A DNA stretch of 37,971 bases, from contig CALIVT010000031.1 in the NCBI GenBank assembly GCA_938048185.1, forward strand, positions 1 through 37,971, in the 5' to 3' direction. The translations under genes and the position numbers were made by a program. How positions within the stretch are numbered: the first letter of the stretch is position 1; every line of letters begins with the position of its first letter. The stretch comes from an uncultured Arenicella sp. Lineage in GTDB: Bacteria > Pseudomonadota > Gammaproteobacteria > Arenicellales > Arenicellaceae. Positions 1,321 through 30,005 of the stretch are shown here, piece after piece. A model generated the notes under the pieces. It was given only the letters and a program-made list of their open reading frames with translations. It was not told where the DNA came from and ran no database searches.

Positions 1321-1383
1321 GGTGAATCCTCTATTTTTATTCTGTGTATTCTTTCGTTTATAAGTTCGTTCGTGAGAGTCTAT

Positions 1384-2982: not shown

Positions 2983-2984
2983 AC

Positions 2985-4475
2985 TTAACCCTTAGTATGT
3001 TTTTTTTGTAAAGTTGGCAAAATGTTAGCGTAAACCTTTGGATGAAGTGCCCCTAACCATTGCTTGAATCGGGTAAGACGACCCACATTCATATCCATAT
3101 CTTCTAACAGTTCGTCAATATGGTGAATTGAAAACGGAATAATGTTGGTACCCTTTGAGTGCTTGCCGTCTGTGCGATTTTCCATCCACTCTAAACGCTC
3201 ATCCACGTCTTTGTTTTGCAAAAATGTTGACGGTAATTTAAAACCATCATTGATGTGATCTGCCAGCCAAAGAGAGCCTATTTCGCAGTTCAATTGGCTG
3301 AAAAACGACGAGTTGTATCCATTAAACGCTAAGCGCGGGACATCTACCGGGATCATCGAACGATATAGGCGGAAGTTACCATTCTGATCGGTCACCTTAG
3401 ACATAATATCATCGGGCAGGAACGGGCATACTTGATGCCAACCGGTTCCACACACAATTATATCAGCCGGCACTGTTTCACCATTCGATAAAATAGCTTC
3501 TCGGCCGCGCAATTCTTCAATAACCACTTTTTTCTTGATACCAATTTTACCAGCCTCAATATTCTGGTAAAAATCGTCACTGACCAAACTAACCGTACTG
3601 CGAGCGATAGTTTCAAGCGGTTTATTTGGGTGCAAACCAAGACGCCGCAAACCCAGCTGACGCTCTACGATAAACTCAACGATGCTGAGCATGGATTTTC
3701 GAATTGGATTACCCACCGTATGAAAGAACTTGTCCATCCCACGTAAGTGGATATAACGAAAAAGCGCCTCGCTCATGCGAGATAAAAACAGATGTTTGTA
3801 GTTGAGCTTATTAGCAATCATTTTCGGAATTTTCCAAATTAAATTACGCGCAACAACGGTTGTGCTGTTAGAAATCTCATGAATTGCATTAGCAACATCA
3901 CAAGAAGACTTACCATACCCAATTACCAACACATTCTTATCACGAGCATCTTCACGACGGGTAAATTCACTGGTATGACAAATGCGGCCACCATTTTCGA
4001 TAAAGCTTTCGACGCCCTTATAGGTAGGAATCGAAGGTACTGAGAATATTCCATTCCCGATAATCAGATAATCAAATTGCTTACTCAAACTTTCGTGCGA
4101 ACCATCCGTTTTTGTTTTAATTACGTCAACTGTCCAAGTGTTACTGCCTTCATCGAACGATGTGTTCGTCACTTCGCAGCTAAGATGGACATCTTGACTA
4201 AAGTCATAGTGGTCAACGTACGATTGCATATAACGCTGCACTTGTTCGCCACTAGGCCACTCTGGGTAGGAAGACGGCATGGGGTAATCGGACAACTCAT
4301 AGGTAGTTCGTGTGTTCTGAGTAGTTAATCCAGGGTATCTACGCGACGCCGACCAAACACCACCCACATCGGCTTCTTTTTCATACAAGGTAATGTCATA
4401 GTCCAGCGCTTTGAACACACGCGCCGCGGTTAACCCTGCGAACCCAGCTCCGATAATACATATTTTTTTAATCAT
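2985..4475 (-). CDS. flavin-containing monooxygenase (FMO/BVMO-type)
   Basis: Class B flavin monooxygenase, 496 residues. Seen: FAD motif IIGAGFAG near residues 7-14, the GGVW motif, an FMO-like linker signature around ENGGRICHTSEF, and a second Rossmann motif VIGYGKSSCD for NADPH. The order FAD, signature, NADPH is diagnostic of FMO and Baeyer-Villiger enzymes. Known members oxygenate N, S or ketone carbonyls; choosing between N-oxygenation and Baeyer-Villiger reaction is not possible here. The linker lacks the exact FxGxxxHxxxW of classical BVMOs, which slightly favours FMO-type. It is co-directional with the TonB receptor upstream, but a terminator-like hairpin and an inverted repeat lie between them, so it may also have its own promoter. 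Confidence 0.85.
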   Translation of the reverse strand: MIKKICIIGAGFAGLTAARVFKALDYDITLYEKEADVGGVWSASRRYPGLTTQNTRTTYELSDYPMPSSYPEWPSGEQVQRYMQSYVDHYDFSQDVHLSCEVTNTSFDEGSNTWTVDVIKTKTDGSHESLSKQFDYLIIGNGIFSVPSIPTYKGVESFIENGGRICHTSEFTRREDARDKNVLVIGYGKSSCDVANAIHEISNSTTVVARNLIWKIPKMIANKLNYKHLFLSRMSEALFRYIHLRGMDKFFHTVGNPIRKSMLSIVEFIVERQLGLRRLGLHPNKPLETIARSTVSLVSDDFYQNIEAGKIGIKKKVVIEELRGREAILSNGETVPADIIVCGTGWHQVCPFLPDDIMSKVTDQNGNFRLYRSMIPVDVPRLAFNGYNSSFFSQLNCEIGSLWLADHINDGFKLPSTFLQNKDVDERLEWMENRTDGKHSKGTNIIPFSIHHIDELLEDMDMNVGRLTRFKQWLGALHPKVYANILPTLQKKHTKG

Positions 4476-4545
4476 TTTTCTTCACGGCCATCACACAAAG
4501 GCATCAGAGTAATTTTAATTTTGACTTTATTTCAAACTTAGAAAA

Positions 4546-4618
4546 TAGGTAAAGCTTGGTCTAAATAAATACATATCTGTATCTATTTCTATTGGGGGGA
4601 AGATCCAAGCTTTACCTA
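4546..4618. repeat. 73-base inverted-repeat element
   Basis: Two perfect 14-base arms, TAGGTAAAGCTTGG at 4546-4559 and its complement at 4605-4618, enclose 45 bases. The enclosed sequence contains a smaller hairpin (ATACA/TGTAT) and a run of six G. Read on the minus strand the element is followed by TTTTC. It lies between the TonB receptor and the FMO gene, both minus-strand. It could be a terminator or processing site with a large loop, or a miniature mobile element. No target-site duplication is evident beyond the TA at each end. Confidence 0.6.
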
Positions 4619-4653
4619 AATTCTCGACCTCGGCACCCTGCCAAGTAGGTAAA

Positions 4654-4688
4654 TTAAGAGCAGACATCAAATTGGCATCTGCTCTTAA
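4654..4688 (-). terminator. hairpin just after the TonB receptor gene
   Basis: Perfect 11-bp stem (TTAAGAGCAGA at 4654-4664, complement at 4678-4688) with a 13-base loop, starting nine bases beyond the receptor stop codon. The base of the stem is A/T-rich and minus-strand transcript continues into TTAATTT, so partial termination or mRNA 3'-end stabilisation is likely. It would lower expression of the downstream FMO genes relative to the receptor. Confidence 0.6.
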
Positions 4689-4696
4689 AATACTGG

Positions 4697-7081
4697 CTAA
4701 AACTCGTAAGAGTAACTTGCATACCATTCACGTGAGCGTGCAAATAGCCCTTCGAACGATTGAAACGCATCGCCAGCAACGCCAGTAACCAAATAGTCTT
4801 CATCCGTGAGATTAGTGACTCCAACCGTAAACCTCTGATTTTCGGAAGTTGATATCCAAGCAACACTCGCATTAACGAGTGAATAGCTGTCTTGTGCGAT
4901 TTGAGGTGTATTAAACGTATCGTTGAAGGTTTCTGAACGATAAGACCAATCAATACGAGGCAAGATGACTGAGCCATTTTGCAAGTTAAATTCGCGTGAT
5001 AATGCCGCGTTTAATGTCCACTCAGGCACACGTTCAAATTCATTCGTTACTGGAAACAACGCGTCTGCGTCGACCTGATCGTACTCGGCGTCTATGAAGC
5101 CAACACCAGCATTAATAAACCAACCACCTCCTGGAATTATTTGCGCTTCGAGTTCAAAACCCGATAACGAAGCTTCCCCTGCGTTAGTGGTCACTGGGGC
5201 AACCCCTTCAAATACCTGAACCTGCAAATCGTCGTAATCAGTATTAAAAATAGCGCCATTCAAAACAAAGCGATTATCAGGCGTTGAGTACTTAAAACCT
5301 AATTCAGTAACGGTGACAAACTCAGGATTAAACGTAGGGATAAGATCTATATCTGGTGTTCCAGCCGGTGCGGTAAAACCAGCAACAATTGGGGGGAATA
5401 CACGCTGAGTAAAACCACCTGATTTAAATCCTTCTGAATACGTACCATAAATCAAAGTGTTCTCATTCAACTGATAGGCCAAATTGAAAAATGGTGTTGT
5501 TTCTTCAATTTCAATCGTTCTTTCAAGCAGAGGAAGAATTCGGGCGCCCGGCGCGAGAAATGGCGTATTAAAAGGATTTCTTGGATCAGGACTCGTGCCG
5601 CTGTTTGTGAAAATAATTTGATCCGGCAAAAATGATTTGTCTTCTTCTGTGTAGCGAATGCCTACGGTAGCACTGAACTTTTCTGTGACATCATATGTAG
5701 CTTGTGCGTAAGCTGCTATTGCTTGGTTCTCAAACGAGCCACCACTTCGGAAACTTGCGACAGCGAAATCAAGCAGATTCACATTGACTCCATCCTCATC
5801 AAAATAGTAGAGGCCTGCAATCCAATTAAATTTCTCGCCTGAACCAAGAAGTTGGAACTCCTGAGTAAACTGTTCCTGTTGAAAGTCATCAAAGAACTGA
5901 GAAATAATGACCGGGGAATGATCACCATCACGAGAAAATTGACTATCTAAATCACGTACTGCTGTAATACTTTTAATGGTTAAGCTATCAGATATATCCC
6001 AAGTCACGTTGACATTGGCACTAGACAAGTCACTATTAGAAAAAGCGGGGGCAGAACCCGAATTCCTGTCTCTACCATTTATAAAACGCTCATCATAACA
6101 ACCTGGGACGGCTAAATTTATCGGTTGCCCGGAGAATGCACAGGGAACCGGAGGGCCGCCAGCAGCGAGGTTCGCACCTATATTAGAGATAGTTGCGATC
6201 GGCACCGTACCGGAAAATGGATCACTTGCTGGCGCTGGATTAAAGAGTGCATTGTCCAAGTTAATTCCAAGTAAAGTCAGCGCTGGCCCATTTTCTCGAT
6301 CTCGACTGACATCAATAGCAGCGTCAAGAGAGAGGTTTTCATTGATATCCCAACTTAAGGCAGCGCGCGCAGTCAGCGTATCATCATCACCTAGATCAAC
6401 GCCATCGTCGCGTGTCACATAGCCATCTCGATTAAAGCTAGCAACGCTGATACTTGATCGCGCGCTTTCACTCAATGGAATGTCTAATCGCGCTTTCACA
6501 TCAAATCGACTGTCATCCCCCACCGTCACGGAAGCCTTGCCACCAAATTCATCCGCCGGCTTTCGAGTAGTTAGACTGATCGCACCACCAATTGTGTTTC
6601 GACCAAAGAGTGTGCCTTGTGGACCCCGCAACACTTCCACACGCTCTACGTCAACTAAGTCTAAGATTGCTCCGACAGACCTTGCGATATAAACCCCATC
6701 AACATAAATACCCACTCCAGGCTCGGTGGTAGGCAAAAACTCCTTTTGACCTACGCCACGCAAATATACCGACGCGGCATTACTTGAACCTCCAAAGCTG
6801 GGGTTGTTTTGAAACGTTAAATTAGGGGTGAAGTCAGCGATTTGACTGATATTAGTCGTACCACGATATTCAAGAGCCTCACCCGTGAACGCTGAAATAG
6901 ATATTGGCGCGTCCTGAAGACTTTCTTCACGTTTACGCGCTGTGACCACGATTTCCTCTAAAAAATTTTCTAGTCCTTTGCTTTCTCTTACCTCTTGCTC
7001 TTGAGCAATAGAGACGGCACTCATGGAAGTCAATGCCACCAGCACGGCGGCAGGGATTGCTTTTAAAAAGGGACGCGTCAT
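4697..7081 (-). CDS. TonB-dependent outer-membrane receptor
   Basis: 794-residue TonB-dependent receptor for energised uptake across the outer membrane. Seen: an N-terminal signal peptide ending near SIAQ (about residue 27), a TonB-box-like EEIVVTARKRE stretch at about 42-52, a plug domain with VYLRGVG, VYVDGVYIAR-type and RVEVLRGPQGTLFGRN motifs, then a long beta-barrel ending in Phe (SYEF), the usual outer-membrane assembly signal. Length is normal. A GGAG ribosome site lies 7-8 bases before the ATG. It is divergent from the AraC-type regulator, and the intergenic region holds a tandem operator. The ligand is unknown; linkage to flavin monooxygenases suggests a small hydrophobic or aromatic compound rather than a siderophore. 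Confidence 0.93.
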   Translation of the reverse strand: MTRPFLKAIPAAVLVALTSMSAVSIAQEQEVRESKGLENFLEEIVVTARKREESLQDAPISISAFTGEALEYRGTTNISQIADFTPNLTFQNNPSFGGSSNAASVYLRGVGQKEFLPTTEPGVGIYVDGVYIARSVGAILDLVDVERVEVLRGPQGTLFGRNTIGGAISLTTRKPADEFGGKASVTVGDDSRFDVKARLDIPLSESARSSISVASFNRDGYVTRDDGVDLGDDDTLTARAALSWDINENLSLDAAIDVSRDRENGPALTLLGINLDNALFNPAPASDPFSGTVPIATISNIGANLAAGGPPVPCAFSGQPINLAVPGCYDERFINGRDRNSGSAPAFSNSDLSSANVNVTWDISDSLTIKSITAVRDLDSQFSRDGDHSPVIISQFFDDFQQEQFTQEFQLLGSGEKFNWIAGLYYFDEDGVNVNLLDFAVASFRSGGSFENQAIAAYAQATYDVTEKFSATVGIRYTEEDKSFLPDQIIFTNSGTSPDPRNPFNTPFLAPGARILPLLERTIEIEETTPFFNLAYQLNENTLIYGTYSEGFKSGGFTQRVFPPIVAGFTAPAGTPDIDLIPTFNPEFVTVTELGFKYSTPDNRFVLNGAIFNTDYDDLQVQVFEGVAPVTTNAGEASLSGFELEAQIIPGGGWFINAGVGFIDAEYDQVDADALFPVTNEFERVPEWTLNAALSREFNLQNGSVILPRIDWSYRSETFNDTFNTPQIAQDSYSLVNASVAWISTSENQRFTVGVTNLTDEDYLVTGVAGDAFQSFEGLFARSREWYASYSYEF

Positions 7082-7117
7082 ATCTCACTCCAATTAATTT
7101 CTATTTGTTTGCCGAAC

Positions 7118-7147
7118 AATTTAGAGGACATGTCACGTAATAGGTAT
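7118..7147 (-). promoter_or_regulatory. candidate activator-dependent promoter of the TonB receptor
   Basis: On the minus strand a poor -35 (ATACCT, 7147-7142) overlaps the end of the promoter-proximal operator repeat. It is followed 17-18 bases later by CTAAAT/TAAATT (7124-7118). A weak -35 overlapped by the activator site is the arrangement known for XylS at the Pm promoter. The same geometry is found upstream of the cyclase gene. Confidence 0.5.
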
Positions 7148-7180
7148 GCAGTTCCTGCACCACGTATGCACTTTCTGCAC
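7144..7180. promoter_or_regulatory. tandem XylS/AraC-type operator
   Basis: Two direct repeats, GTATGCAGTTCCTGCAC (7144-7160) and GTATGCACTTTCTGCAC (7164-7180), exactly 20 bases apart. Read on the minus strand each is TGCA-N6-GCATA, close to the published XylS half-site TGCA-N6-GGNTA. The pair lies between the receptor and the regulator gene, which fits autoregulation plus activation of the receptor by the adjacent AraC-family protein. A second tandem copy is at 14318-14355. Confidence 0.7.
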
Positions 7181-7187
7181 ATATTCA

Positions 7188-7216
7188 TTGCAGGACTAAT
7201 AATTAGTCCTTATAAT
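7188..7216 (+). promoter_or_regulatory. sigma-70 promoter of the AraC-type regulator with a palindrome in the spacer
   Basis: TTGCAG (7188-7193), 17 bases, TATAAT (7211-7216), about 28 bases before the regulator ATG. The spacer is almost entirely occupied by a perfect 19-base palindrome, AGGACTAAT-A-ATTAGTCCT (7192-7210). A protein bound there would block RNA polymerase, so it looks like a repressor operator distinct from the TGCA repeats. Confidence 0.65.
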
Positions 7217-7244
7217 TATTTCAAGCTTAAAGCAATTTTTTATT

Positions 7245-8267
7245 ATGAATGTAGCGATAAAAGAACCCCCTAAGTCGTTATTGCAGACTCAACATGAATT
7301 GTTCAGATCAGCGGACTTAGATGAAACGCGATCAAGAGTCGGCGAAGTTTACTGTGATCACAAACTAGAGGTTAATAGTGGTGCACTGGATGCATTCCAC
7401 TATCACATCCCATTTGATGGTATCAGTTTCAACTACATGGGCTACGGCGCAGAATGCCTGATCGAACCAGGATGTTTGGGGGACTTTTATTTATTACAGC
7501 TACCACTAAAGGGCCATGCAACCATCTTTGCAGATGGGCGTGAATTCGAATCACACCCAGGAAAAGCAAGCATATTAAATCCTAATTCATACACCAAAAT
7601 GATATGGTCAAGTGGGTGTGAACAATTACTGGTTCAAATCGATAAGAACAAAGTAGATAGTAGCCTTGCTAGCTGCTTGGGTAGGCAGGTCGGAGATGAG
7701 ATAGCCTTTAATCCTAATGTTACTCAAAACGATGACAAGCAATCTGCTTGGTGGCGCCATGTTATCTCTTTTATCAGGGAATACAACCAAGCACATAGCT
7801 TTTATAACACGCAATGCGTGCTTAATAATGAGTTAGATTCAATCGTCAAAGGCTTATTGTTTACCCTTGATCATAATCACAGTGAAACACTGATCACCAA
7901 AGACAAAGTCGTTTTGCCTAAACATGTTCATAAGGCAACCGAGCATATACGCGAGAATTTCAGTGAAACGCTAAGCATCCATGACCTTGTAACGATTACT
8001 GGTGTCAGTGAGCGGTGTTTATTTGAAGGCTTTAAGCAAAATTTGAAAGTAACGCCCATGCAATTTTTGATGCAAATACGTTTGTCCAATGTGCGTGCCG
8101 AATTGCTCAAAGATTCCTGCGACCACAACGCAAATATCACACAAATAGCCTTAGATAATGGCTTTACCCAGCTCGGACGATTTTCATCTTACTACAAAGA
8201 TATGTTTGGTGAACTACCGTCGGAAACTGTTAAGGCGCGAAAGATGTCTACTCAGCTCGCACGGTGA
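7245..8267 (+). CDS. AraC/XylS-family transcriptional regulator
   Basis: 340-residue regulator. The C-terminal third (about 225-335) is the double helix-turn-helix of AraC proteins: ENFSETLSIHDLVTITGVSERCLFEGFKQNLKVTP forms the first half and ITQIALDNGFTQLGRFSSYYKDMFGELPSET the second. The GF-x-LGRFS-x-Y-x-FGE-PSET ending is characteristic of the XylS/BenR/FeaR branch. The N-terminal ~200 residues form an effector-binding domain of the AraC_binding_2 type. XylS relatives are activators responding to aromatic acids, so the inducer here is probably a pathway intermediate. It is divergent from the TonB receptor, with tandem operators between them. No strong ribosome site precedes the ATG. Confidence 0.9.
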   Translation: MNVAIKEPPKSLLQTQHELFRSADLDETRSRVGEVYCDHKLEVNSGALDAFHYHIPFDGISFNYMGYGAECLIEPGCLGDFYLLQLPLKGHATIFADGREFESHPGKASILNPNSYTKMIWSSGCEQLLVQIDKNKVDSSLASCLGRQVGDEIAFNPNVTQNDDKQSAWWRHVISFIREYNQAHSFYNTQCVLNNELDSIVKGLLFTLDHNHSETLITKDKVVLPKHVHKATEHIRENFSETLSIHDLVTITGVSERCLFEGFKQNLKVTPMQFLMQIRLSNVRAELLKDSCDHNANITQIALDNGFTQLGRFSSYYKDMFGELPSETVKARKMSTQLAR

Positions 8268-8314: not shown

Positions 8315-9574
8315 CTAGACACGGTTCACATCTGTGTCTTTGTAAAAGTCTCGCCAAATAAACCAAAATATTCGACTCTTGAGCGTATCTAAGCGCTTTA
8401 GCACACCAGCGTTACTGCTGCCAAAGATATTGACTTGAGTAATAGCCTGTCCACTTTCATTATAAAACGCCACTAAGGAATCGTATTGCGCGTCATAGTA
8501 AATTGCGATATCACTGCCGCCGATTTTGACGTTCAGTAAACCACCTTTGCTGACCACAAAATCTTTGGTATACGCCACGTAATCGTCACCGACATTCATG
8601 CCATATACCATTTTCTTTACCGGCAGCCGATCATCAAATTCATCAATCGTTGGAAATGCAGGCTCATCTGATTGCCACTGCAATGATCTCACAGCCAGCA
8701 ACATCATCCCATCACGCACTATTGTGTCCCAAAACCTCACTAAAAAGTTATCGCTCTGTTGTTCAATGTTATTAATATACACTTCACCATCAGGATAGAG
8801 CTCTTTGAATGAGCTAAACGGCATTCTTAGGGTAGGCCATTCTTTCATACGCTGGCTTTGTTGGCCTTGACTCTCTGCGGTACCCCAAAACTGTTGAATA
8901 GGCTCACCACTATTAGTGTCCCACATCACTAAGTTATTTCGCAGTTGTGTCATCACACGCAATTTCAGAGGTTTGCCATTTATCTCTGGGGTATACGCAA
9001 TCCCCATATTAGTTAAACCGCAATAGGTCATGACCACGCGTTCGCCGTTGATTTGACCACCATCTACGATATGTGGTTGCAGCAAATAATAGTCTGCATA
9101 CGCACGTGCACCGCCATCAGTTTCAAGCACCAGCATCTCGATTTCATCAACGGAATCAAACTCAGATTTTTCATACGCCGCATGCTTCATCTGCTCAAGA
9201 TACCTAGGTGCGTCATTAACCGACACAAACGTTGCTTGTCCTTCAAACTGCTGAGGTCGAAACATCAAAATGGTATTAAACATGCCTGAATACCAATTAA
9301 ACATGCAGAATACGACCAAAGTAATGATGCCCCATTTTGGCAATAGGTTCCTGTTTTTAAACCATATAAAGACACTGGTGAACAAGGCGATAAGAGTTGC
9401 AATCGCAATAGGCCAACGGTTAAACCAAATGAACATGGTAAATTCACGACTAGACTGCACTACCCATTGACTAATATCAGCAAGGTCCTTAAAAATAAAA
9501 AAGGCGCCGACCTGAGCGGCTATCATTAAAACCCAAAAAAATATTTTACTTGTCGTAGATGCTGATTGAGTCAT
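8315..9574 (-). CDS. membrane protein with DUF3179-like domain
   Basis: 419 residues. The first ~110 contain three hydrophobic segments (around 9-29, 52-70 and 79-102), giving a membrane anchor. The remainder is soluble and contains a DUF3179-like region: YCGLTNMGIAY, then RNNLVMWDTNSGEPIQQFWGTAESQG, matching the cysteine/asparagine signature and the 'L.N...MYD..S...W.Q..G.A' pattern of that family. Its biochemical role is unknown. It is the last gene of the cyclase-ior operon, 73 bases after the beta subunit, with an AAGGTG ribosome site. It is convergent with the regulator. A cofactor, electron-transfer or transport role for the operon is possible but unproven. Confidence 0.65.
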   Translation of the reverse strand: MTQSASTTSKIFFWVLMIAAQVGAFFIFKDLADISQWVVQSSREFTMFIWFNRWPIAIATLIALFTSVFIWFKNRNLLPKWGIITLVVFCMFNWYSGMFNTILMFRPQQFEGQATFVSVNDAPRYLEQMKHAAYEKSEFDSVDEIEMLVLETDGGARAYADYYLLQPHIVDGGQINGERVVMTYCGLTNMGIAYTPEINGKPLKLRVMTQLRNNLVMWDTNSGEPIQQFWGTAESQGQQSQRMKEWPTLRMPFSSFKELYPDGEVYINNIEQQSDNFLVRFWDTIVRDGMMLLAVRSLQWQSDEPAFPTIDEFDDRLPVKKMVYGMNVGDDYVAYTKDFVVSKGGLLNVKIGGSDIAIYYDAQYDSLVAFYNESGQAITQVNIFGSSNAGVLKRLDTLKSRIFWFIWRDFYKDTDVNRV

Positions 9575-9647
9575 GTTTACACCTTATCTCTCTATACTCG
9601 TTGATTATTGTATTGCCCAAGGCGACGCGTGTTCACTAGTCTTACTA

Positions 9648-11186
9648 CTAAGCTATAACCGCCGTATTTATTTCCTTGCTTAGCTGCGAACCCGACTCTT
9701 CTGCTAGAGCAGCATCACACAGTCGAGTAATCACTTTACTTGGTTCATCGTTCTTCAAAATATTAGGCAGACTGGCAACAATGCTTGAATAGCTAGCCCA
9801 ACCGCGATCATGAGTGTCTCCATACCCCTTAATCAATCTCTGACATTGAGCAATGGATACCGCGCTTTGATAGTCGATTTTTGTGGTATTACTCACAAGC
9901 GTTAACCAATCGTCAATACGAGTATGCTCACGCTTGAAACGCAATGTGCTGCGCCTAATTGCTCGAAACTTTGCGGTGGTGTAGAGCAACAAAAAACCAC
10001 TTAACTTAGAAGTATGAATTTTGCGTTCTTTGCAAAAATAGTTCACCATTTTTCGTAACGGCGTAACACCCAAAATCAGTTTACCAAGCCAACTTGGCAT
10101 AGTATCGGCAACTTCTTCGAGCCTCGGATGCATAAACTCAATTACATGCACCACATCATCACTTCGTGCTTTAACGTGATCTTTATAACGAGTGAAACGT
10201 TTTTTTCTGATCTTCAGGTCAGCCACACGAATGGTGTCTTCGTAGGACATCCACAAAGCCAAATACCGAGCTACTTCACGGGTTAACTCAAATTTATACT
10301 GTCCACCATCGTGAGCTCTATCTGTTTTTACTAGTTTGATAAGTAGCTGAACGTAGTCGCGCGCGTAGGCCAAATCCTGATAGTCAAGTAATCGTTTTAT
10401 GCCCTCTACCGTGAACTCATGGGTCTGATCGGGTAGCTCAGATTTTACCTTTGCTAACAACATTTGTAACTCACGTTGTTTCGCTTTTGGGAATTTGAAC
10501 TTGCTTTCTTGTGAGCTATCTTTGGAGGCAACGCTGGGTTCATTAAGCAGCGCTCGAGCTCGTTCATAGCCGATCTTAAAACCGGCTAGATTCGATTCAA
10601 TCGCTTTGCCACCTTGACGAATAATGTCTTCAAATTGCGACCTCTCGAATGGTAACTGATCACTACCAGCTAGTGAACCAAACAATATGGCACTGATCAT
10701 ACAACCTGTGTCGACCGCAGCTTGATTCATATCAAAACCTATAAAATTTTTAGCGTGTTCGCGAGCACCAGCAATTATCAAGCCTGAATTGACGCGACCG
10801 TCGCCTAGCACTTCTTTCTCAACTTGCGAATAAAGGCGGTGAGTAGAAACAATAAAGGTCGTTTGCTCTGGTGTTACAATGCCGCGCATTACAGCACGAC
10901 CCGCCTCTACCAGTTCACCTGCAACTACAATATCGACATCACCCTCAACTGGCATCAAGGCCATGACCGGTTCTTTAGCGGCTTGCTTGGACAGTTCTTC
11001 AGGAAACAGTTCTATATAATAAATCGTGGAGCCAGTTCGCTGTGCGACTCCAGGTACTGAAGTATATTGAGCGTAATACTGGTTACTTTCTGCCAGTGCC
11101 ACCAACCACGATGATAAGACGCCACCACCTTGCCCACCCATGGCCGCTATTGCTAATTTTATTGGCTGCTTTGTTGTCGTGCTCAT
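9648..11186 (-). CDS. indolepyruvate-type 2-oxoacid oxidoreductase, beta subunit
   Basis: 512 residues. The N-terminal ~200 are the gamma/beta domain of 2-oxoacid:ferredoxin oxidoreductases: AAMGGQGGGVLSSWLV (about 13-28), then SVPGVAQRTGSTIYY, the usual signature. The remaining ~300 residues are the extra C-terminal domain (DUF6537-type) found in long aerobic relatives. The enzyme oxidatively decarboxylates an aryl 2-oxoacid with CoA, forming an acyl-CoA, CO2 and reduced acceptor. It starts 4 bases after the alpha-subunit stop, so the two are cotranslated. True indolepyruvate is one possible substrate; aryl-glyoxylates such as isatinate are another (see findings). Symbol left empty because the substrate is uncertain, though the relation to IorB is clear. 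Confidence 0.85.
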   Translation of the reverse strand: MSTTTKQPIKLAIAAMGGQGGGVLSSWLVALAESNQYYAQYTSVPGVAQRTGSTIYYIELFPEELSKQAAKEPVMALMPVEGDVDIVVAGELVEAGRAVMRGIVTPEQTTFIVSTHRLYSQVEKEVLGDGRVNSGLIIAGAREHAKNFIGFDMNQAAVDTGCMISAILFGSLAGSDQLPFERSQFEDIIRQGGKAIESNLAGFKIGYERARALLNEPSVASKDSSQESKFKFPKAKQRELQMLLAKVKSELPDQTHEFTVEGIKRLLDYQDLAYARDYVQLLIKLVKTDRAHDGGQYKFELTREVARYLALWMSYEDTIRVADLKIRKKRFTRYKDHVKARSDDVVHVIEFMHPRLEEVADTMPSWLGKLILGVTPLRKMVNYFCKERKIHTSKLSGFLLLYTTAKFRAIRRSTLRFKREHTRIDDWLTLVSNTTKIDYQSAVSIAQCQRLIKGYGDTHDRGWASYSSIVASLPNILKNDEPSKVITRLCDAALAEESGSQLSKEINTAVIA

Positions 11187-11190
11187 GGTC

Positions 11191-13338
11191 TTAATCTTCC
11201 ATTACCCATCGTGCATGCTTCTTTTCAATGCCGCTTTGCAAAAAGCGAATAATGGCATGTCCAATTGTGTATCTCATTTTCTCAAACCAACCGGGGTTAC
11301 GGACTAAGTCCGCTCTAAAAAATGATGGACAGAGTACCGCCGCATGAGCAACTTCACCACAAACTCCACAACCAACACAGCTTTCCTCCACCTTGGCGAC
11401 AGGATCTTCTCTTAATGGATCTGGGTTATCGGCAATCGACAAAGATGGGCAACCCGATAATCGAATACAAGAGTGATCACCAGTACAAACATCATCGTCA
11501 ATACCAAATTTTTGCTCAACGACACGCTTACCTTGCTTGATTTTTTCAACGCGTAACGGCTTTTCTCTACGAGTCTTGTTCAGCATACATTCGCCTTCGG
11601 CAACAATCACCTTTGGGCCAACATGATCGGTAGCCATCGCATCACGCAGAGCTTGCAGGCTTTGTTTAATATCGTAGGTTTGCGTTCTTCTTACCCATGT
11701 CACTCCCATGCCTTTGACCGCGTCAACAATTGGAATTTTATATTGTCGGTCATTCGCCACGGCCTTCGAAGATGGAATCCACTGACCACCGGTTGCGGCA
11801 GAATAGCCATTGTCAACCACTACAGTAATACCATCGTGCTGGTTCTCAACTGAATTACCAATGCCGCTGGTTAAGCCGTTATGCCAGAAACCACCGTCAC
11901 CCATTAAACTAATAGGTCGACGCTCATGTTTTAAATTAAATGCCGAGGAACTTGCAGCACCCAGCCCATACCCCACAATCGTATTACCTAAATTAAAAGG
12001 CGCCAGCGTGGCGAACGAATGACAACCGATATCGGCACTGACTTGTAGCGGACCGACTTCACGTTGCAGCAACTTCATTGCAGTAAAAAACGGGCGCTCA
12101 GGACAACCGGTACATAGACCAGGTGGTCTCTCCGGAATGGCCTTTGCGATCGTTTCAACGGGGATACTAATCTCATGCACCGTTTTCTTTGGCGGAGCCA
12201 GTAATTCAGGTTGCGTTTTTTTAACAAATGCTTTTATGCCGTCACGCAGCACCGCACCGGTATATTCACCCGCCTTGATTAACACATCTTTACCATAGAG
12301 CTTAGTATTGATGTCAGCCTTGCGTAATATGCTGTGCAGGTTCTGCTCGATGAAATCCGGTTGACCTTCTTCGATCATCAATACCGCGTCTTTATCACGG
12401 CAAAAATTTTCTAGCTCGTCGTCGACCAATGGATAGGAAACATTCATAACGTACAGAGGTACGTCGGAGTTACCGAAACTATCCGACAAGCCTAAACCCT
12501 GAAGCGCACGTATAACCCCATTGTAATGCCCACCCAACGTAATAATACCGACGCGGTCACTTCTTGCACCCGGCATCAGCTCATTCAGCTTGGCTTCGCG
12601 TATGTACTCTATTGCTGCTGGCCATCGGTCATTGATTTTTTCTTGTTCATGCCGAAATGTATGGGGTGGCAGAATAATCGCGTCACCCGAACCGACTGGT
12701 TTATCCAATGCCTCTTTTCGGCTAAACGCACCTTTTCGATTATCTTTAGCAATAAAGCGTCCGTGCATATGGCAAGCACGTATTCGCATTTGATACATCA
12801 CTGGCGTATTGCTGGCTTCGGATAAACGAAAACCATGCTCGACCATTTCAGTCATGGTATCTAAATTCGGCCGTGGATCTATTAACCACATTTGAGATTT
12901 CATCGCAAAAGCATGGGTTCGCTCTTGCATAATACTGGCACCCTCGCCATAGTCTTCGCCAAGGATAATAAGCGCACCACCTTTGACACCGGCTGAAGCA
13001 ATATTAGACAGCGCATCGGAGGCAACGTTGGTTCCCACCGTAGACTTCCATGTGACAGCACCACGCAATGGATAGTTGATAGACGCTGCAAGCATGGCCG
13101 CCGCAGTCGCTTCACTTGCCGAACTCTCGAAATGCACGTCGAGTTCTTCAAGCACATCGTGGGCATCTGCCAGCACGTCCATCAAATGTGACACAGGCGC
13201 ACCTTGATAGCCACCGACGTAAGATACGCCGGATTGTAGCAGGGCCTTGGTGACCGCAAGAATACCTTCACCGTGAAACTCATCTCCGTCGCTTAGGCGT
13301 AACTTCCCTATTTCTTTGACGAATGAACGCTCGGCCAT
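11191..13338 (-). CDS. indolepyruvate-type 2-oxoacid oxidoreductase, alpha subunit
   Basis: 715-residue thiamin-diphosphate and iron-sulfur subunit (IorA family). Domain order: pyrimidine-binding domain (~20-190), domain III (~260-370), CTGCPERPF at 409-417, thiamin-diphosphate domain with GDGGFWHNG near 480 and the VVDNGYSAATGGQ loop near 507-519, and a C-terminal ferredoxin-like domain with cysteines 618/624/630 and CVGCGVC at 654-660 plus Cys670. Together with the beta subunit it converts an aryl 2-oxoacid and CoA to the aroyl- or arylacetyl-CoA. The start has an AGGAG site 8 bases upstream. It lies 59 bases after the cyclase gene. Reduced ferredoxin is the expected electron product; no ferredoxin gene is in the window. 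Confidence 0.9.
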   Translation of the reverse strand: MAERSFVKEIGKLRLSDGDEFHGEGILAVTKALLQSGVSYVGGYQGAPVSHLMDVLADAHDVLEELDVHFESSASEATAAAMLAASINYPLRGAVTWKSTVGTNVASDALSNIASAGVKGGALIILGEDYGEGASIMQERTHAFAMKSQMWLIDPRPNLDTMTEMVEHGFRLSEASNTPVMYQMRIRACHMHGRFIAKDNRKGAFSRKEALDKPVGSGDAIILPPHTFRHEQEKINDRWPAAIEYIREAKLNELMPGARSDRVGIITLGGHYNGVIRALQGLGLSDSFGNSDVPLYVMNVSYPLVDDELENFCRDKDAVLMIEEGQPDFIEQNLHSILRKADINTKLYGKDVLIKAGEYTGAVLRDGIKAFVKKTQPELLAPPKKTVHEISIPVETIAKAIPERPPGLCTGCPERPFFTAMKLLQREVGPLQVSADIGCHSFATLAPFNLGNTIVGYGLGAASSSAFNLKHERRPISLMGDGGFWHNGLTSGIGNSVENQHDGITVVVDNGYSAATGGQWIPSSKAVANDRQYKIPIVDAVKGMGVTWVRRTQTYDIKQSLQALRDAMATDHVGPKVIVAEGECMLNKTRREKPLRVEKIKQGKRVVEQKFGIDDDVCTGDHSCIRLSGCPSLSIADNPDPLREDPVAKVEESCVGCGVCGEVAHAAVLCPSFFRADLVRNPGWFEKMRYTIGHAIIRFLQSGIEKKHARWVMED

Positions 13339-13397
13339 TTAAATGCTCCTACTTAGAACAATCTGTAAGTTATGCAAGCCCAATGTTGTGTTCAAGC

Positions 13398-14180
13398 CTA
13401 TTCAGGCACAAGTGCCAGTACGCGTAACGGGCTACCTGAACCATTCAAAATTTTCAACGGCGCACTGATAATCACCGCGCCAGTGGCGGGCAACTTATCT
13501 AGGTTTGTCATGCACTGTAAACCGTATTTGCCAGATCCCATAAAAAAGTAATGGTGTGGATACGGTGGGTCAAAACTGAATGCTTGACCTGCGTCGGTCC
13601 CTACGGTTTCGCAACCAAAGCCGATCACATCGCGCTCTTCGATCATCCAACGACACGCGGCGACATCTGGCCCGGGAGAATGCGCACCATCTTTTTGCAT
13701 GTTGGTGTAGTTATCAGGATCAGCAATTTTTCGCCAATCTGACCGTAAAAATACCCACGAACCCGCCGCAATAGTTCCGTGCTGCGCTTCCCAACTCTCT
13801 AAATGTTCTACGGTTAAAATAAAGCCTTTATCTGCGGCAACTTCGGCAGAACAATCAATCACCACAACCGGCGCAATCATGTCTTCAACTATCAAGGTGT
13901 CGGTCGACGCATTTGGAAGGTCTTTACCTGTAACCCAGTGACATGGTGCATCAAAATGCGTGCCAGTGTGCTCGCTGAGAGTAATGTTCTGCCAATACCA
14001 TGCGGGGCCATCACCATCGTACTTAGAAATTACTTCCGCGCTAAATGGAAGCGCCTGATTAAACTCTTCTGGCAATTGAATTGTCGGGTACTCTGGGCGC
14101 AAGGTCTCGGTAAGATCAACCACCTTAATACCGCCTTGTGTAATCCCAGCAATTAAATCGCTCAATACTGATGCTGACAT
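13398..14180 (-). CDS. cyclase-family metal-dependent hydrolase (isatin hydrolase/arylformamidase type)
   Basis: 260 residues with the family metal signature HTGTHFDAPCH at 71-81 (His71, His75, Asp77, His81). The family includes KynB arylformamidase, isatin hydrolase and polyketide cyclase-like proteins, which open cyclic or formyl amides with a divalent metal. KynB proteins are usually near 210 residues; 260 fits isatin hydrolases and other long members better. It is the first gene of an operon with the 2-oxoacid oxidoreductase, which would suit a product that is an aryl-2-oxoacid, such as isatinate. That substrate is inference. A tandem XylS-like operator and candidate promoter lie about 110-175 bases upstream. 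GAGG precedes the ATG. Confidence 0.8.
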   Translation of the reverse strand: MSASVLSDLIAGITQGGIKVVDLTETLRPEYPTIQLPEEFNQALPFSAEVISKYDGDGPAWYWQNITLSEHTGTHFDAPCHWVTGKDLPNASTDTLIVEDMIAPVVVIDCSAEVAADKGFILTVEHLESWEAQHGTIAAGSWVFLRSDWRKIADPDNYTNMQKDGAHSPGPDVAACRWMIEERDVIGFGCETVGTDAGQAFSFDPPYPHHYFFMGSGKYGLQCMTNLDKLPATGAVIISAPLKILNGSGSPLRVLALVPE

Positions 14181-14389: not shown

Positions 14390-15598
14390 TTAACGGCAGC
14401 GCTCAATAATTATGGACAAGCCCTGCCCAACGCCAACACACATTGTACACAAAGCATAACGGCCCTCAATTTCTTCAAGTTGACGCAAGGCGGTGTAGAC
14501 AATTCGTGCACCAGACATGCCAAGCGGGTGCCCAAGCGCAATAGCACCACCTTTACTATTTACACGCTCATCTTCATCGCTGAGACCTAGCCCCCTCAAT
14601 ACCGCTAGAGCTTGAGCGGCAAATGCCTCATTGAGCTCAATTACATCCATATCAGGCAGGGACAGCCCCGACATATTCAGCACTTTTAGAGTCGCTGGAA
14701 CAGGACCAATTCCCATCACGCTTGGCTCTACTCCCGCACTTGCCATAGCCACAACTCGGCCTCGCGGCAGCAAACCATATTTTGATACACCACGGTCATT
14801 CGCCAACAGCAAGGCGCTCGCTCCGTCATTGACGCCTGATGCATTTCCTGCGGTGACGGTACCATTTTTTTTAAACGGGGTTGGCAGCGTTGCCAGTTTT
14901 TCAACAGTGGTATCTGCGCGGATATGCTCATCCTGCGTTACCTCTATAGGCTCGGCGCGTCGCTGAGGAATTTCGACCGCAACAATCTCATCATCAAAAA
15001 ACTCAGCGGCTTGTGCATCACCGGCTTTTTTTTGGCTGGCAGAAGCAAACACGTCTTGATCTTGACGTGAAATGGTGTATTTCTCTGCGAGGTTCTCAGC
15101 GGTTTCTGGCATTGATTCCGTACCGTGTTGGGCTTGCAATGCTTTGTTAATAAAACGCCACCCAATCGTCGTATCGTATATCTGGGCATTACGACTAAAC
15201 GCGGCCTCGGCTTTTGGCATAACCAGCGGAGAACGCGACATAGATTCCACGCCACCGGCGACAATAATTTCCGATTCATTTAATTTTAATGATCTTGCCG
15301 CATGACCAATTGCTTCCATGCCTGAGCCACACAAACGGTTTACCGTTACGCCAGCGACAGTGACACTTAACCCTGCAAGCAGAGATGCCATGCGCGCCAC
15401 ATTACGATTATCTTCACCCGCTTGATTGGCGCACCCGAGTATCACTTCGTCGACTGTATTCCAGTCTAGATGAGGGTTTCTAGTTTTCAGCGCGCGAATT
15501 GGTATCGCTGCAAGATCATCGGCGCGAACATTCGAAAGAGCACCGCCATAGCGACCTATCGGCGTTCGAATTCCATCACAAATATAAGCATTTTTCAT
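14390..15598 (-). CDS. acetyl-CoA acyltransferase (thiolase, beta-ketoadipyl-CoA thiolase-like)
   Basis: 402-residue biosynthetic/degradative thiolase with the complete active site: nucleophile Cys90 in NRLCGSGM, His357 in ALGHPLGMSG, and acid/base Cys387 in CTMCVGVGQG. The N-terminal IRTPIGRYGG and overall pattern are closest to PcaF/PaaJ enzymes that cleave 3-oxoadipyl-CoA. In this cluster it likely cleaves a 3-oxo-dicarboxylyl- or 3-oxopimelyl-CoA to acetyl-CoA and a shorter acyl-CoA such as glutaryl-CoA, the substrate of the dehydrogenase at the head of the same operon. It is the last gene of the gcdH-thioesterase-thiolase operon, 30 bases after the thioesterase. Confidence 0.9.
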   Translation of the reverse strand: MKNAYICDGIRTPIGRYGGALSNVRADDLAAIPIRALKTRNPHLDWNTVDEVILGCANQAGEDNRNVARMASLLAGLSVTVAGVTVNRLCGSGMEAIGHAARSLKLNESEIIVAGGVESMSRSPLVMPKAEAAFSRNAQIYDTTIGWRFINKALQAQHGTESMPETAENLAEKYTISRQDQDVFASASQKKAGDAQAAEFFDDEIVAVEIPQRRAEPIEVTQDEHIRADTTVEKLATLPTPFKKNGTVTAGNASGVNDGASALLLANDRGVSKYGLLPRGRVVAMASAGVEPSVMGIGPVPATLKVLNMSGLSLPDMDVIELNEAFAAQALAVLRGLGLSDEDERVNSKGGAIALGHPLGMSGARIVYTALRQLEEIEGRYALCTMCVGVGQGLSIIIERCR

Positions 15599-15628: not shown

Positions 15629-16036
15629 TTAGGTTTCCATCATTAGCTTTTTAAGTTCGGCAGGTATCTCATCGGCGTTGAATTCACCTGACAAACCTTT
15701 AACGATATACACCATCGTGAGCTTAGCCTTCAAGCGACTTTCTCCACCACAAACGGCCTCTAAAGCGACGTTAATAGAGCTTTCGCCGAGCTGCAGCAGT
15801 GAAAGAGAGAACGTTAATACATCACCAAGCTGACTCGGACGATTAAAATCAACGTCAATATGCGCTGCAGGAACACCCGCGTTAAATTCATCATGCAAAC
15901 GTCGAAAATCATAACCCAGCTGGCCTTCGCACCATTCTTCTATCACCTGGTTGAACATTTCAAAGTAACGAGGGTAGAACACGATTCCAGCAAAATCGAC
16001 ATGATTAAATCGGACTTTAATATCGGTTTTAAACAT
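15629..16036 (-). CDS. acyl-CoA thioesterase, 4HBT (hotdog) family
   Basis: 135-residue single hotdog-fold thioesterase. The N-terminal VRFNHVDFAGIVFYPRYFEMFNQ matches the 4-hydroxybenzoyl-CoA thioesterase signature, with Asp in HVDFAGIV as the expected catalytic acid. I place the start at the ATG at 16036; an in-frame TTG five codons upstream (16051) is possible, but neither has a strong ribosome site. It lies between gcdH and thiolase in one minus-strand operon. It probably releases CoA from stalled aromatic or dicarboxylic thioesters, as many aryl-CoA pathways carry such a housekeeping hydrolase; the substrate is not determined. Confidence 0.85.
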   Translation of the reverse strand: MFKTDIKVRFNHVDFAGIVFYPRYFEMFNQVIEEWCEGQLGYDFRRLHDEFNAGVPAAHIDVDFNRPSQLGDVLTFSLSLLQLGESSINVALEAVCGGESRLKAKLTMVYIVKGLSGEFNADEIPAELKKLMMET

Positions 16037-16082
16037 ATCAGCTACGCCCAATAGTGCATTTCAAATTCAATTTAGCAAGTAC

Positions 16083-17279
16083 CTATTGAAACGCCTGTAA
16101 GCCAGTTTGAGCTCGCCCTAAAATTAACGCATGTATATCGTGCGTGCCTTCATAGGTATTCACCGCTTCTAAATTCATTGCATGGCGAATAATATGAAAT
16201 TCATCAGCAACACCATTGCCTCCATGCATATCGCGCGCGATTCTGGCAATCTCTAAAGCCTTACCACAATTATTACGTTTCATTAATGAGACAGATTCAG
16301 GTCCAGTTGCGCCTTTATCAATTGCGCGGCCAGTCGCCAACGCACCGTTTAAACCCAATGCAATATCAGTCTGCATATCGGCAAGTTTCTTCTGTACTAG
16401 TTGATTAGCAGCAAGCGGTTTGCCAAATTGCTTTCTATCCATCGTGTATTGACGAGCGGCGTGCCAGCAAAATTCCGCAGCGCCCATCGAGCCCCACGCG
16501 ATACCGTAACGCGCGCGATTGAGGCAACCAAACGGCCCGCCTAGGCCAGAGATATTTGGTAGCAAATTTTCTTCTGGAACAAACACTTCGTCCATTACGA
16601 TTTCACCAGTGATCGAGGCTCTCAATGAGAATTTGCCTTCCACTTTAGGCGCGCTTAAACCTTCCCAACCTTTCTCTAAGATAAACCCACGAATTTTACC
16701 GTCGTCAGTCTTACCCCAGACTACAAATACATCGGCTATAGGCGAGTTAGTGATCCACATTTTAGCGCCGCTTAAGCGATATCCGCCATCGACTGAGCGC
16801 GCTCTGGTAACCATTGAGCCGGGATCTGAACCGTGATCTGGCTCCGTCAAACCAAAGCAGCCAACGGTTTCGCCAGACGCAAGCTTGGGTAGATACTTAC
16901 TACGTTGATCTTCAGAGCCATAAGCATAGATCGGGTACATAACCAGACTCGATTGGACGCTCATCGCAGAACGATAACCTGAATCAACTCGCTCTACTTC
17001 TCGTGCAATCAACCCATAGCTGACATAGTTAAGACCTGAGCCGCCGTATTGCTCAGGCAAAGTAGAGCCTAATAGGCCGAGCTCACCAAATTGATTCATG
17101 ATGGTACGATCAAATACCTCGTGACGATTGGCCTCTACGATCCCTGGCATCAGTTTGTCTTGGCAAAACGCGCGTGCGGTCTCCATGATCATGCCTTCTT
17201 CGTCAGACAGATTACTGTTAAAGCACAAGGGGTCTTCCCAATTAAAAGTCCCTTCTACGGTTGCAATATTGCCACTCAT
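16083..17279 (-). CDS. gcdH: glutaryl-CoA dehydrogenase
   Basis: 398-residue FAD enzyme that oxidises and decarboxylates glutaryl-CoA to crotonyl-CoA. The sequence carries long stretches characteristic of Gcd[23 protein letters not shown] (with the substrate-carboxylate Arg), [32 protein letters not shown] and the C-terminal [20 protein letters not shown], with catalytic Glu377. Length is normal for the family. The ATG at 17279 is preferred over a TTG four codons upstream because GGAG lies seven bases before it. It heads an operon with thioesterase and thiolase and is divergent from an SDR. It implies that the upper pathway delivers glutaryl-CoA, as expected after ring opening and thiolysis of a C7 dicarboxylyl-CoA. 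Confidence 0.93.
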
Positions 17280-17376
17280 GGTGATCTCCAATTTACAAAA
17301 TTAAATGAAAAGCTCGCACTTAGCGACGAACAACCAGATTGCCACGATGTTAAGTGAATAGCGTTAAACGACTCGA

Positions 17377-17405
17377 ATATTCATACACTAAAAACTTTAT
17401 GTCAA
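17377..17405 (-). promoter_or_regulatory. sigma-70 promoter of the gcdH operon
   Basis: Minus-strand TTGACA (17405-17400), 17 bases, GAATAT (17382-17377), giving a leader of about 90 bases. It is back to back with the promoter of the divergent SDR; the two -35 boxes are 26 bases apart. Confidence 0.55.
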
Positions 17406-17427
17406 TAACTTTCTTACTTAAAATATT

Positions 17428-17461
17428 TATATTGACAATATATGGGACTAAACTTTAATAT
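17428..17461 (+). promoter_or_regulatory. promoter of the SDR-MarR operon with overlapping palindromic operator
   Basis: TTGACA (17432-17437), 18 bases, TAATAT (17456-17461). The -35 is embedded in a perfect 15-base palindrome TATATTG-A-CAATATA (17428-17442), size and placement typical of MarR-family operators. The MarR gene is the second gene downstream, so autorepression is a reasonable inference. Confidence 0.6.
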
Positions 17462-17494: not shown

Positions 17495-18250
17495 ATGAAT
17501 CCGTCATTAAAAGAAAAACACGCAATCATCACCGGAGGCGGCACTGGCATTGGCGCGGCTATCGCCGATGCGCTGACAAAACTTGGAGTAAGGGTTACAT
17601 TAATGGGTCGCCGCATAGAACCGCTTAATGAGAAGGCAAATGAGTTGCTTGACGCAGCAGCTATCACGGTCGATGTTGCAAATGAAGAGTCAGTTAAAAA
17701 AGCATTTGACCAAGCAGGCGACTACGATATCTTGATCAATAACGCTGGCTTCGCCGAAAGCGCGCCAGCAAACAGAATATCATTAGAGCATTGGGAGAAA
17801 ACCATTGGCGTAAACCTGACGGGTGTATTTTTATGCTCTAAACATGCGGTAGACATGCTCAAAAAGAAAGACTACGGTCGCATAGTCAACATCGCCAGCA
17901 CCGCTGGATTAACGGGCTATGGCTACGTCAGCGCATACTGCGCAGCTAAGCACGGGGCAATCGGTTTTACTAAGTCATTGGCAAAAGAGATGGCCAGAAC
18001 ATCAACCACGGTTAACGCAGTTTGCCCAGGCTATACCGAAACCGCTATTTTGAGCGATACAATCACCAATATCATGAGCAAGACTGGCTGTACTGAACTG
18101 CAAGCGAAAGACCAACTGCTAGCCGATAACCCGCAAAGAAAATTCATCCAGCCGAACGAAGTGGCCAGCATGACCGCCTCGCTTTGTTTAGAGGCAAGTC
18201 AATCAATTACAGGGCAAGCAATTGCCGTCGACGGAGGCGAGACTTGCTAG
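17495..18250 (+). CDS. short-chain dehydrogenase/reductase (FabG-like SDR)
   Basis: 251-residue classical SDR. Seen: TGGGTGIG at 13-20, INNAG at 81-85, catalytic Ser135, Tyr148 and Lys152 (YCAAK), and the C-terminal AVDGGETC. This is closest in style to 3-oxoacyl or 3-hydroxyacyl dehydrogenases. SDRs of this kind accompany 2-aminobenzoyl-CoA monooxygenase/reductase clusters, where a ring ketone or hydroxyacyl-CoA must be reduced or oxidised; that role is inferred. No strong ribosome site is visible before the ATG, and no in-frame upstream start exists before a stop at 17477. First gene of the plus-strand run; 145 bases separate it from marR. Confidence 0.88.
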   Translation: MNPSLKEKHAIITGGGTGIGAAIADALTKLGVRVTLMGRRIEPLNEKANELLDAAAITVDVANEESVKKAFDQAGDYDILINNAGFAESAPANRISLEHWEKTIGVNLTGVFLCSKHAVDMLKKKDYGRIVNIASTAGLTGYGYVSAYCAAKHGAIGFTKSLAKEMARTSTTVNAVCPGYTETAILSDTITNIMSKTGCTELQAKDQLLADNPQRKFIQPNEVASMTASLCLEASQSITGQAIAVDGGETC

Positions 18251-22632: not shown

Positions 22633-22676
22633 CCCTTAACTCCCAACAACGCTACACACCACGCAGAGGAAGAAAT

Positions 22677-25142: not shown

Positions 25143-25198
25143 TAGATCAACTTATATAAGTAGCGATATCTTCTAAAAAAAACAACGGATTCAACGTC

Positions 25199-25759: not shown

Positions 25760-25784
25760 TCCTGTCGATCAAGAGAACACCGTT

Positions 25785-29840: not shown

Positions 29841-29867
29841 GTTCTGTTTCTCCGTTGATAGGCTCGA

Positions 29868-29920: not shown

Positions 29921-30005
29921 GATCATCTTGAGGAGCATCACCCAAGGCTTAGCACTGAAAGCGCCTACTAATATTACTCACCAGTTAAATCACTAAGAGT
30001 TTGAT

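Follow-up and report, generated by a model that had tools for sequence, protein, structure and literature searches.

Variovorax, Achromobacter and Bradyrhizobium have iad loci for aerobic indole-3-acetate degradation, by which auxin is converted to isatin, isatinic acid and then anthranilic acid, and of which iorA/iorB (iadA/iadB) are exclusive markers (PMC9613470; papers are cited by PMC number from excerpts, and what is said of them holds for those excerpts). In the excerpts these pathways are drawn as ending in anthranilic acid, and the markers iadA/iadB have no assigned step. We analysed a window, meaning the whole stretch of 37,971 nucleotides of contig CALIVT010000031.1 (assembly GCA_938048185.1, an uncultured Arenicella sp.), in which genes for an isatin hydrolase and for both subunits of an IorAB-type 2-oxoacid oxidoreductase lie in one cluster with genes of the abm pathway, among them one for a fused 2-aminobenzoyl-CoA monooxygenase/reductase (ACMR). 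The best explanation, and probably the right one, is that the cluster degrades an indole-type compound via isatin and that IorAB converts isatinate to 2-aminobenzoyl-CoA. This is the most economical reading of the linkage of these genes, the absence of a ligase and the published metabolite data.

The cluster shares iorA/iorB with the iad loci, and two Variovorax loci (L093 and L095) carry an isatin-hydrolase homologue ~6-7 kb downstream of IorB. It differs from them in that the window has no IadF ligase, the abm lower pathway lies inside the same cluster, and the published endpoint of the iad pathway is anthranilate and not a CoA ester. Nor was IadDE found in the genome, its sole PF00848 protein being 28-29% identical to IadD over ~200 residues (the IadD ORFs, or open reading frames, that were compared share 60-70%, two of the four are over-long, and IadE was not searched genome-wide). 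This protein, the genome's only match to a Rieske alpha subunit, is thus not IadD, and isatin may come here from one of two candidate modules on either side of the core. The earlier note on this DNA knew of no described operon with the proposed function. The pairing of IorAB with an isatin-hydrolase-like protein is already known from the iad loci, but in the excerpts IorAB is not given the isatinate step there, and the step from isatinate to 2-aminobenzoyl-CoA seems newly proposed for IorAB. The excerpts of a 2025 preprint (PMC12633357) give roles to IadCDE, IadF, IadG, IadH, IadI and IadJ and none to IadA/B; those of PMC10374108, PMC11630574 and PMC12409115 leave the IorAB step unassigned too. 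In open PMC full text, outside of which a subscription report on the Achromobacter iad genes lies, we found in the excerpts no paper assigning the isatinate step to IorAB.

In the same preprint, strong build-up of C8H7NO3, the formula of isatinate, and of C7H7NO is confined to Variovorax strains that overexpress iadC-K2 (PMC12633357). The Variovorax deletion background comprises genes 77-53, iadA being gene 72 and iadC gene 70 (PMC9613470), and by these gene numbers, in our reading and not that of the original authors, iadAB should be missing from it. Since the background should lack iadAB, the build-up of these metabolites fits IorAB as the consumer of isatinate. The chemistry of the step has precedent in two other enzymes. 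Phenylglyoxylate:NAD oxidoreductase, PadEFGHI, converts an arylglyoxylate to an aroyl-CoA and so carries out the same type of reaction (PMC5109826), although it is a distinct five-gene enzyme of anaerobic phenylacetate/phenylalanine metabolism and acts on an unsubstituted ring. EdcC of estrogen-degrading Novosphingobium is a catabolic enzyme of the IOR family for which decarboxylation of a meta-cleavage product with attachment of CoA has been proposed (PMC7793797), but its substrate is a steroid ring-cleavage product and not an arylglyoxylate. For indole degradation by Cupriavidus sp. SHE, isatin, isatic acid and anthranilate have been reported and a 2-aminobenzoyl-CoA gene cluster has been called vital; in the review concerned, however, the described route starts from free anthranilate and uses the ligase, and the isatin hydrolase gene still awaits testing (PMC6221969).

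Isatin hydrolase and the IorAB subunits

The hydrolase, IorA and IorB are encoded by three intact ORFs on the minus strand (260, 715 and 512 amino acids, respectively; Table 1). Because the gaps between them are only 59 bp (hydrolase/IorA) and 4 bp (IorA/IorB), an operon is plausible, and the statement of the earlier note that a cyclase-family hydrolase is operonic with both IorAB subunits holds. The hydrolase is the sole match to PF04199 (Cyclase, 131.7 bits) in the genome and has the metal-site motif EHTGTHFDAPCHW. Its top PDB matches are isatin hydrolases (5nna, E 2.6e-101), and 149 of 257 aligned residues (58%) are identical to those of Labrenzia isatin hydrolase A (LaIHA). The verified isatin hydrolases LaIHA and RsIHA are themselves 59% identical to each other (PMC6117287). 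All 11 of the LaIHA residues on the checklist for metal, catalysis and pocket that we took from that paper are kept in the alignment. The isatin hydrolase metal motif HxG[T/A]HxDxPxH and the catalytic Asp-His-His are present as His71, His75, Asp77, His81, Asp196 and His210 (window numbering), as are the four pocket aromatics of the isatin hydrolase criterion (Trp59, Trp61, Trp80 and Tyr204) and GLQC, where the criterion accepts GLQC or GLAS; its Gln (criterion Gln219) stands where kynurenine formamidase (KynB) has Glu. On this sequence evidence the identification as an isatin hydrolase, which the earlier note had suggested, is secure, and the enzyme should open isatin to isatinate (2-aminobenzoylformate) as an Mn-type enzyme. 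KynB shares the fold family and the metal motif, and there is a weak match to its model TIGR03035; this match, however, reaches 29.2 bits against a cut-off of 223.05, the metal site has Gln and not Glu, and neither tryptophan dioxygenase nor kynureninase has a match in the window's genome. KynB was therefore rejected, and there is hardly any chance that the cluster serves a tryptophan/kynurenine route.

IorB is a beta subunit of the IorB family, with 622 bits to NF006179 against a cut-off of 348 and with POR and DUF6537 domains. IorA matches TIGR03336 near full-length with 280.1 bits, the cut-off being 650.9, which makes it a homologue and not an equivalog. The OFOR-type motifs, GDGG...N for thiamine diphosphate and the Fe-S cysteines CxxCxxC...CP, are kept in 96 or 97 of 97 IorA relatives. 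In all 97 IorA sequences the first Fe-S motif reads C-x5-C-x5-CP, and an Asp follows C-x-G. Such an Fe-S motif usually has a four-cysteine spacing, unlike that of the IorA set, and the altered spacing may reflect adaptation to oxygen. The predicted structure of IorA (24 sequences; mean pLDDT 69.4, pTM 0.56) has generic thiamine-diphosphate folds as its top structure matches, with 2-oxoglutarate oxidoreductases at ranks 39 and 49 (8ys5 and 6n2n); the model leaves the substrate undecided.

Linkage of IorAB, isatin hydrolase and ACMR

IorA is patchily distributed: it was found in 19 of 119 searched genomes, the window's own included, and among the 17 same-genus genomes listed only in one, G005. 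G005 keeps the order IorB-IorA-isatin hydrolase-thiolase-thioesterase-acyl-CoA dehydrogenase; the divergent abm genes and ACMR are kept too, and identities across this core are 72-93% (IorB is split in two there by the borders of the fetched stretches). For a wider view, the best 80 IorA loci of a longer list, from named genomes, were taken, of which 50 are well covered, with 8 kb or more on either side of IorA; neighbouring genes were assigned by matching to named reference proteins, and a locus was called iad on a match to IadE or IadF. An isatin hydrolase is present in 37 of the 50 well-covered loci, ACMR in 23, an IadE-type subunit in 22 and a CrtI-like gene in 11. In 44 of the 50 there is an isatin hydrolase gene, an iad gene, an abm gene or more than one of these, and six have none of isatin hydrolase, ACMR, IadE and CrtI-like genes. 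Since G005 keeps the core order and the isatin hydrolase lies near IorA in 37/50 loci, the arrangement is not due to chance. Across all 80 loci, isatin hydrolase and IorA are no more than 1.5 kb apart in 19 of 47 pairs. The linkage spans alpha-, beta- and gammaproteobacterial names as well as Actinomycetota, and the tie between IorAB and the fused monooxygenase/reductase drawn in the earlier note recurs in many lineages.

Of 11 loci where isatin hydrolase alone had been seen at first, 8 (L203-L207, L211, L190 and L212) proved to have IorA next to it once the fetched stretches were widened; L188, L219 and L166 did not. An Alloyangia plasmid carries a gene annotated as a styrene/indole monooxygenase (Pfam Smoa_sbd) in the vicinity of ACMR, a cyclase gene and IorAB; farther along there is an AMP-binding gene. 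The isatin hydrolase of the window (E <= 1e-40) is in 5 of the 369 genomes of a class sample, and ACMR is also in four of these five. A late role for IorAB, on a ring-cleavage 2-oxoacid in the manner proposed for EdcC, is very unlikely, as IorAB adjoins the isatin hydrolase here and in G005 and the scanned window proteins include no ring-cleaving dioxygenase. The ACMR route, moreover, is dearomatising and already CoA-bound.

ACMR itself has the fusion of FAD monooxygenase and old-yellow-enzyme (OYE) domains and scores 1026.7 bits to NF006101 over 763 residues, just short of the cut-off of 1078. Most of its relatives align from residue ~26-36 onward, and its true start is probably near 29840. 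The ACMR, enoyl-CoA hydratase, acyl-CoA dehydrogenase, SDR, MarR and RidA genes of the window occur as in the gammaproteobacterial clusters L129 and L132, and in this they resemble the abm pathway of Arthrobacter pAL1, where ACMR and RidA are present too, and of Azoarcus evansii. The difference is that the window and its genome have no anthranilate-CoA ligase ortholog and that the operon holds isatin hydrolase and IorAB instead.

In two loci, L210 and L216, IorAB is near ACMR without an isatin hydrolase and without a nearby ligase. In L210 (4578-16974, genome G698) IorA, IorB, thioesterase and ACMR genes come in that order, and after them come a cupin gene, which by eye resembles a gentisate dioxygenase, and genes for FAA hydrolase, nitrilase, racemase-like and MarR-like proteins; the locus is possibly a gentisate-type branch of the same pathway logic; no anthranilate-CoA ligase match was found in G698 at E 1e-90. 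The NCBIfam name of the ACMR family is salicylyl-CoA 5-hydroxylase, and this name and the coupling of IorAB-ACMR to gentisate-type genes in L210 would suit an ACMR homologue acting on salicylyl-CoA, which IorAB would then make from 2-hydroxyphenylglyoxylate. For the window, whose RidA deaminase and isatin hydrolase point to an amino substrate and whose scanned proteins include no gentisate-type ones, we give this only a slim chance.

The proposed isatinate step and the anthranilate-CoA ligase

In the route that we propose, isatin hydrolase would open isatin to isatinate, and IorAB, judging from its context, would oxidatively decarboxylate isatinate with CoA to 2-aminobenzoyl-CoA and CO2, its electrons going to ferredoxin or another acceptor. 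ACMR would hydroxylate and reduce the ring of 2-aminobenzoyl-CoA, RidA, which fits an amino-substituted ring product, would take off the nitrogen of the enamine, and a closing breakdown resembling beta-oxidation would fall to the acyl-CoA dehydrogenases, hydratases, 3-hydroxyacyl-CoA dehydrogenase and thiolase. Here the route would replace an ATP-dependent anthranilate-CoA ligase, and in many other genomes it would be a second entry beside the ligase. If IorAB makes 2-aminobenzoyl-CoA, the ATP of the ligase is saved, the product stays CoA-bound and the endpoint is ring degradation and not free anthranilate. We lean towards the broader view that IorAB is a dedicated isatinate oxidoreductase that joins isatin-type indole/auxin catabolism to the CoA-bound anthranilate pathway in aerobes, which would give iadA/iadB their function; if true, this bears on the engineering and annotation of auxin and indole degraders.

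As the earlier note had stated, no aryl-CoA ligase is in the window (no PF00501 protein there); 13 AMP-ligases are elsewhere in the genome, which is 98% complete. In a tree with the verified anthranilate-CoA ligase of Arthrobacter (activity reported in PMC3534580) and ligases from ACMR clusters, none of these AMP-ligases falls in that clade, several of them being on long branches. The genome search by which the earlier note had proposed to challenge its own reading has therefore yielded no ortholog of this ligase in the window or the genome. In the class sample ACMR is in 16 genomes, 13 of which have the ligase (47-55% identity; the G224 match is partial), the best match in the window's own genome being 34%. 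Four of the ACMR genomes have an isatin hydrolase, and the three that lack the ligase (the window's own, G005 and G343) are all among these four (p = 0.007); two of the three belong to one genus, and G343 is 84% complete. G303 has isatin hydrolase, IorAB, ACMR and the ligase in one genome, and on a Tsukamurella plasmid both entries, isatin hydrolase/IorAB and ligase, are side by side.

A phylum sample added 83 ACMR genomes out of 397. From the two samples, the window included, 80 of 95 ACMR loci were kept, in which ACMR has over 6 kb of sequence to either side; the other 15, with 6 kb or less on one side, were dropped. A ligase is nearby in 53/61 loci that have no isatin hydrolase/IorA nearby versus 6/19 that have; by genus the counts are 33/40 and 5/12 (p = 0.0095), a mixed genus being counted as ligase present and one genus possibly falling in both groups. 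The ligase is absent genome-wide for 5/19 linked versus 2/61 unlinked loci (p = 0.007; 0.022 without G005), a nearby ligase being counted as present. In the IorA set, 21 loci are of the ACMR or abm type and have no IadE; 3 of these hold an AMP-ligase.

Several results weigh against the assignment of the isatinate step to IorAB. IorA is so far under the IOR_alpha cut-off that membership of the family does not reveal its substrate. When only loci lacking a nearby ligase are compared, the genome-wide absence is 5/13 for linked versus 2/8 for unlinked loci (p = 0.66), so that the contrast is gone; conversely, in two of these eight (G691 and G613) the ligase is on the same contig, ~9 and 11 kb from ACMR, just past the fetched stretch. 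Of 12 tested genomes in which isatin hydrolase/IorA are linked and the ligase is not nearby, 9 carry one elsewhere, which weakens any proof of a bypass from the local lack of a ligase by itself, and a different AMP-ligase could have assumed the anthranilate role here. In 13 of 15 fetched order-level relatives with an IorA of 53-60% identity, neither isatin hydrolase nor ACMR is in the fetched stretch (some stretches are short), and IorA is in 7 of 12 class ACMR genomes that lack isatin hydrolase. In addition, the iadC-K2 segment alone restored anthranilic acid in Variovorax (PMC12633357), which points to an IorAB-independent way of reaching anthranilate in that organism.

A rival is another route, in which isatinate goes, spontaneously or by another enzyme, to 2-aminobenzaldehyde and then to anthranilate, which a non-orthologous AMP-ligase activates, IorAB serving another 2-oxoacid such as indolepyruvate or phenylpyruvate. 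C7H7NO and anthranilate in Variovorax carrying iadC-K2 (PMC12633357), the 13 AMP-ligases of the genome and the occurrence of IorAB relatives in other contexts agree with it. We nevertheless regard it as unlikely, as there is no anthranilate-CoA ligase ortholog in the genome, no aldehyde dehydrogenase among the scanned window proteins (not every window ORF was scanned) and an isatin hydrolase near IorA in most well-covered loci. With IorAB acting on isatinate, the predicted bypass is real insofar as some genomes show only the isatin hydrolase/IorAB entry; many hold both. The bypass of the earlier note thus stands for this genome and a few others but is not general, given the 13 of 16 class ACMR genomes, G303 among them, that have the ligase. 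Its interpretation overall is partly supported, the IorAB reaction itself being read from context.

Surrounding genes

Table 1. Features of the cluster and its surroundings (window positions).
Feature	Position	Strand	Basis
Isatin hydrolase (cyclase family, Mn-dependent type; predicted to open isatin to isatinate)	13398..14180	-	PDB matches, LaIHA alignment
IorA, thiamine-diphosphate 2-oxoacid oxidoreductase alpha subunit, C-terminal Fe-S domain	11191..13338	-	TIGR03336 280 bits, motifs
Proposed IorA reaction: isatinate + CoA to 2-aminobenzoyl-CoA + CO2	11191..13338	-	linkage to isatin hydrolase and ACMR
IorB, beta subunit (POR and DUF6537 domains)	9648..11186	-	NF006179 622 bits (cut-off 348), Pfam
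ACMR, fused 2-aminobenzoyl-CoA (or salicylyl-CoA) monooxygenase/reductase	27465..29945	-	NF006101 1026.7 bits (cut-off 1078)
3-Oxoadipyl-CoA-type (PcaF-type) thiolase, upstream of isatin hydrolase in the same strand run	14390..15598	-	TIGR02430 658.6 bits (cut-off 597); order identical in G005
Hotdog thioesterase	15629..16051	-	YbgC-like, under cut-offs; present in G005
Acyl-CoA dehydrogenase 1	16083..17291	-	family models under cut-offs; 93% in G005
Inverted repeat TGTCAATA-N22-TATTGACA, divergent promoter region, possible MarR operator	17400..17437	.	arms and spacing identical in G005
SDR dehydrogenase, leading gene of the divergent abm operon	17495..18250	+	family models; G005
MarR-family regulator	18396..18902	+	MarR-type models under cut-offs; 93% in G005
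Enoyl-CoA hydratase, abm cluster	18928..19728	+	NF006107 489.9 bits (cut-off 330); adjoins ACMR in sampled clusters
Acyl-CoA dehydrogenase 2, abm cluster	19731..20906	+	family models; sampled ACMR clusters
RidA-family enamine/imine deaminase	20946..21338	+	PF01042 74.7 bits; adjoins ACMR in sampled clusters
Peripheral module: LLM monooxygenase, TonB receptor, gluconate-dehydrogenase-subunit-3-like protein, GMC oxidoreductase	21532..27377	+	similar module in L142, L044
Peripheral module: SDR, CrtI-like FAD oxidoreductase, FMO-like monooxygenase, TonB receptor, AraC regulator	526..8267	.	relatives in L031, L059
Old-yellow-enzyme-like reductase, PaaF-like hydratase, 3-hydroxyacyl-CoA dehydrogenase (lower pathway)	30006..33804	+	family scans; present in G005

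The two peripheral modules are possible upstream routes to isatin. L142 has the same module as that at 21532..27377 next to its isatin hydrolase, and so does L044, though there the LLM gene is lacking. TonB, AraC, CrtI-like and SDR relatives of the second, without FMO, adjoin isatin hydrolase-IorAB in L031 and L059. The CrtI-like gene (1384-2982) is sometimes present in two copies in the loci where it is near IorA, and its product may be the isatin-forming enzyme where IadDE is absent. The LLM, GMC, FMO, CrtI-like, AraC and DUF3179 genes of the window are unmatched in the three fetched stretches of G005, and the TonB receptor has only a distant match there (36%).

The DUF3179 membrane protein, an intact minus-strand ORF at 8315-9574, had been included in the span of the earlier note. 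It was rejected as a component of the system, as relatives were found in 0 of the 80 IorA loci and 0 of 18 further fetched loci (relatives, G005 included); because of this it is unlikely to belong to the conserved core. In its place next to IorB, G005 has a reductive-dehalogenase-like Fe-S protein (PF13486, 28.0 bits versus 24.3; L108:18109-19470), which hints at halogenated indoles or isatins as substrates. The inverted repeat, whose conservation in the shared divergent promoter also speaks for the proposed explanation, has its sole exact match in the window at its own position, with one other copy at three mismatches, and no shared MarR operator was found within the window in the ACMR promoter. 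An OYE gene is near isatin hydrolase/ACMR also in L020, L033, L034 and L049. A protein with a C-terminal CHRD domain is encoded at 35544-36833, with no visible tie to the cluster, and a tandem repeat array with a 168-base period and 84-base sub-units runs from 37504 to 37971, the end of the window.

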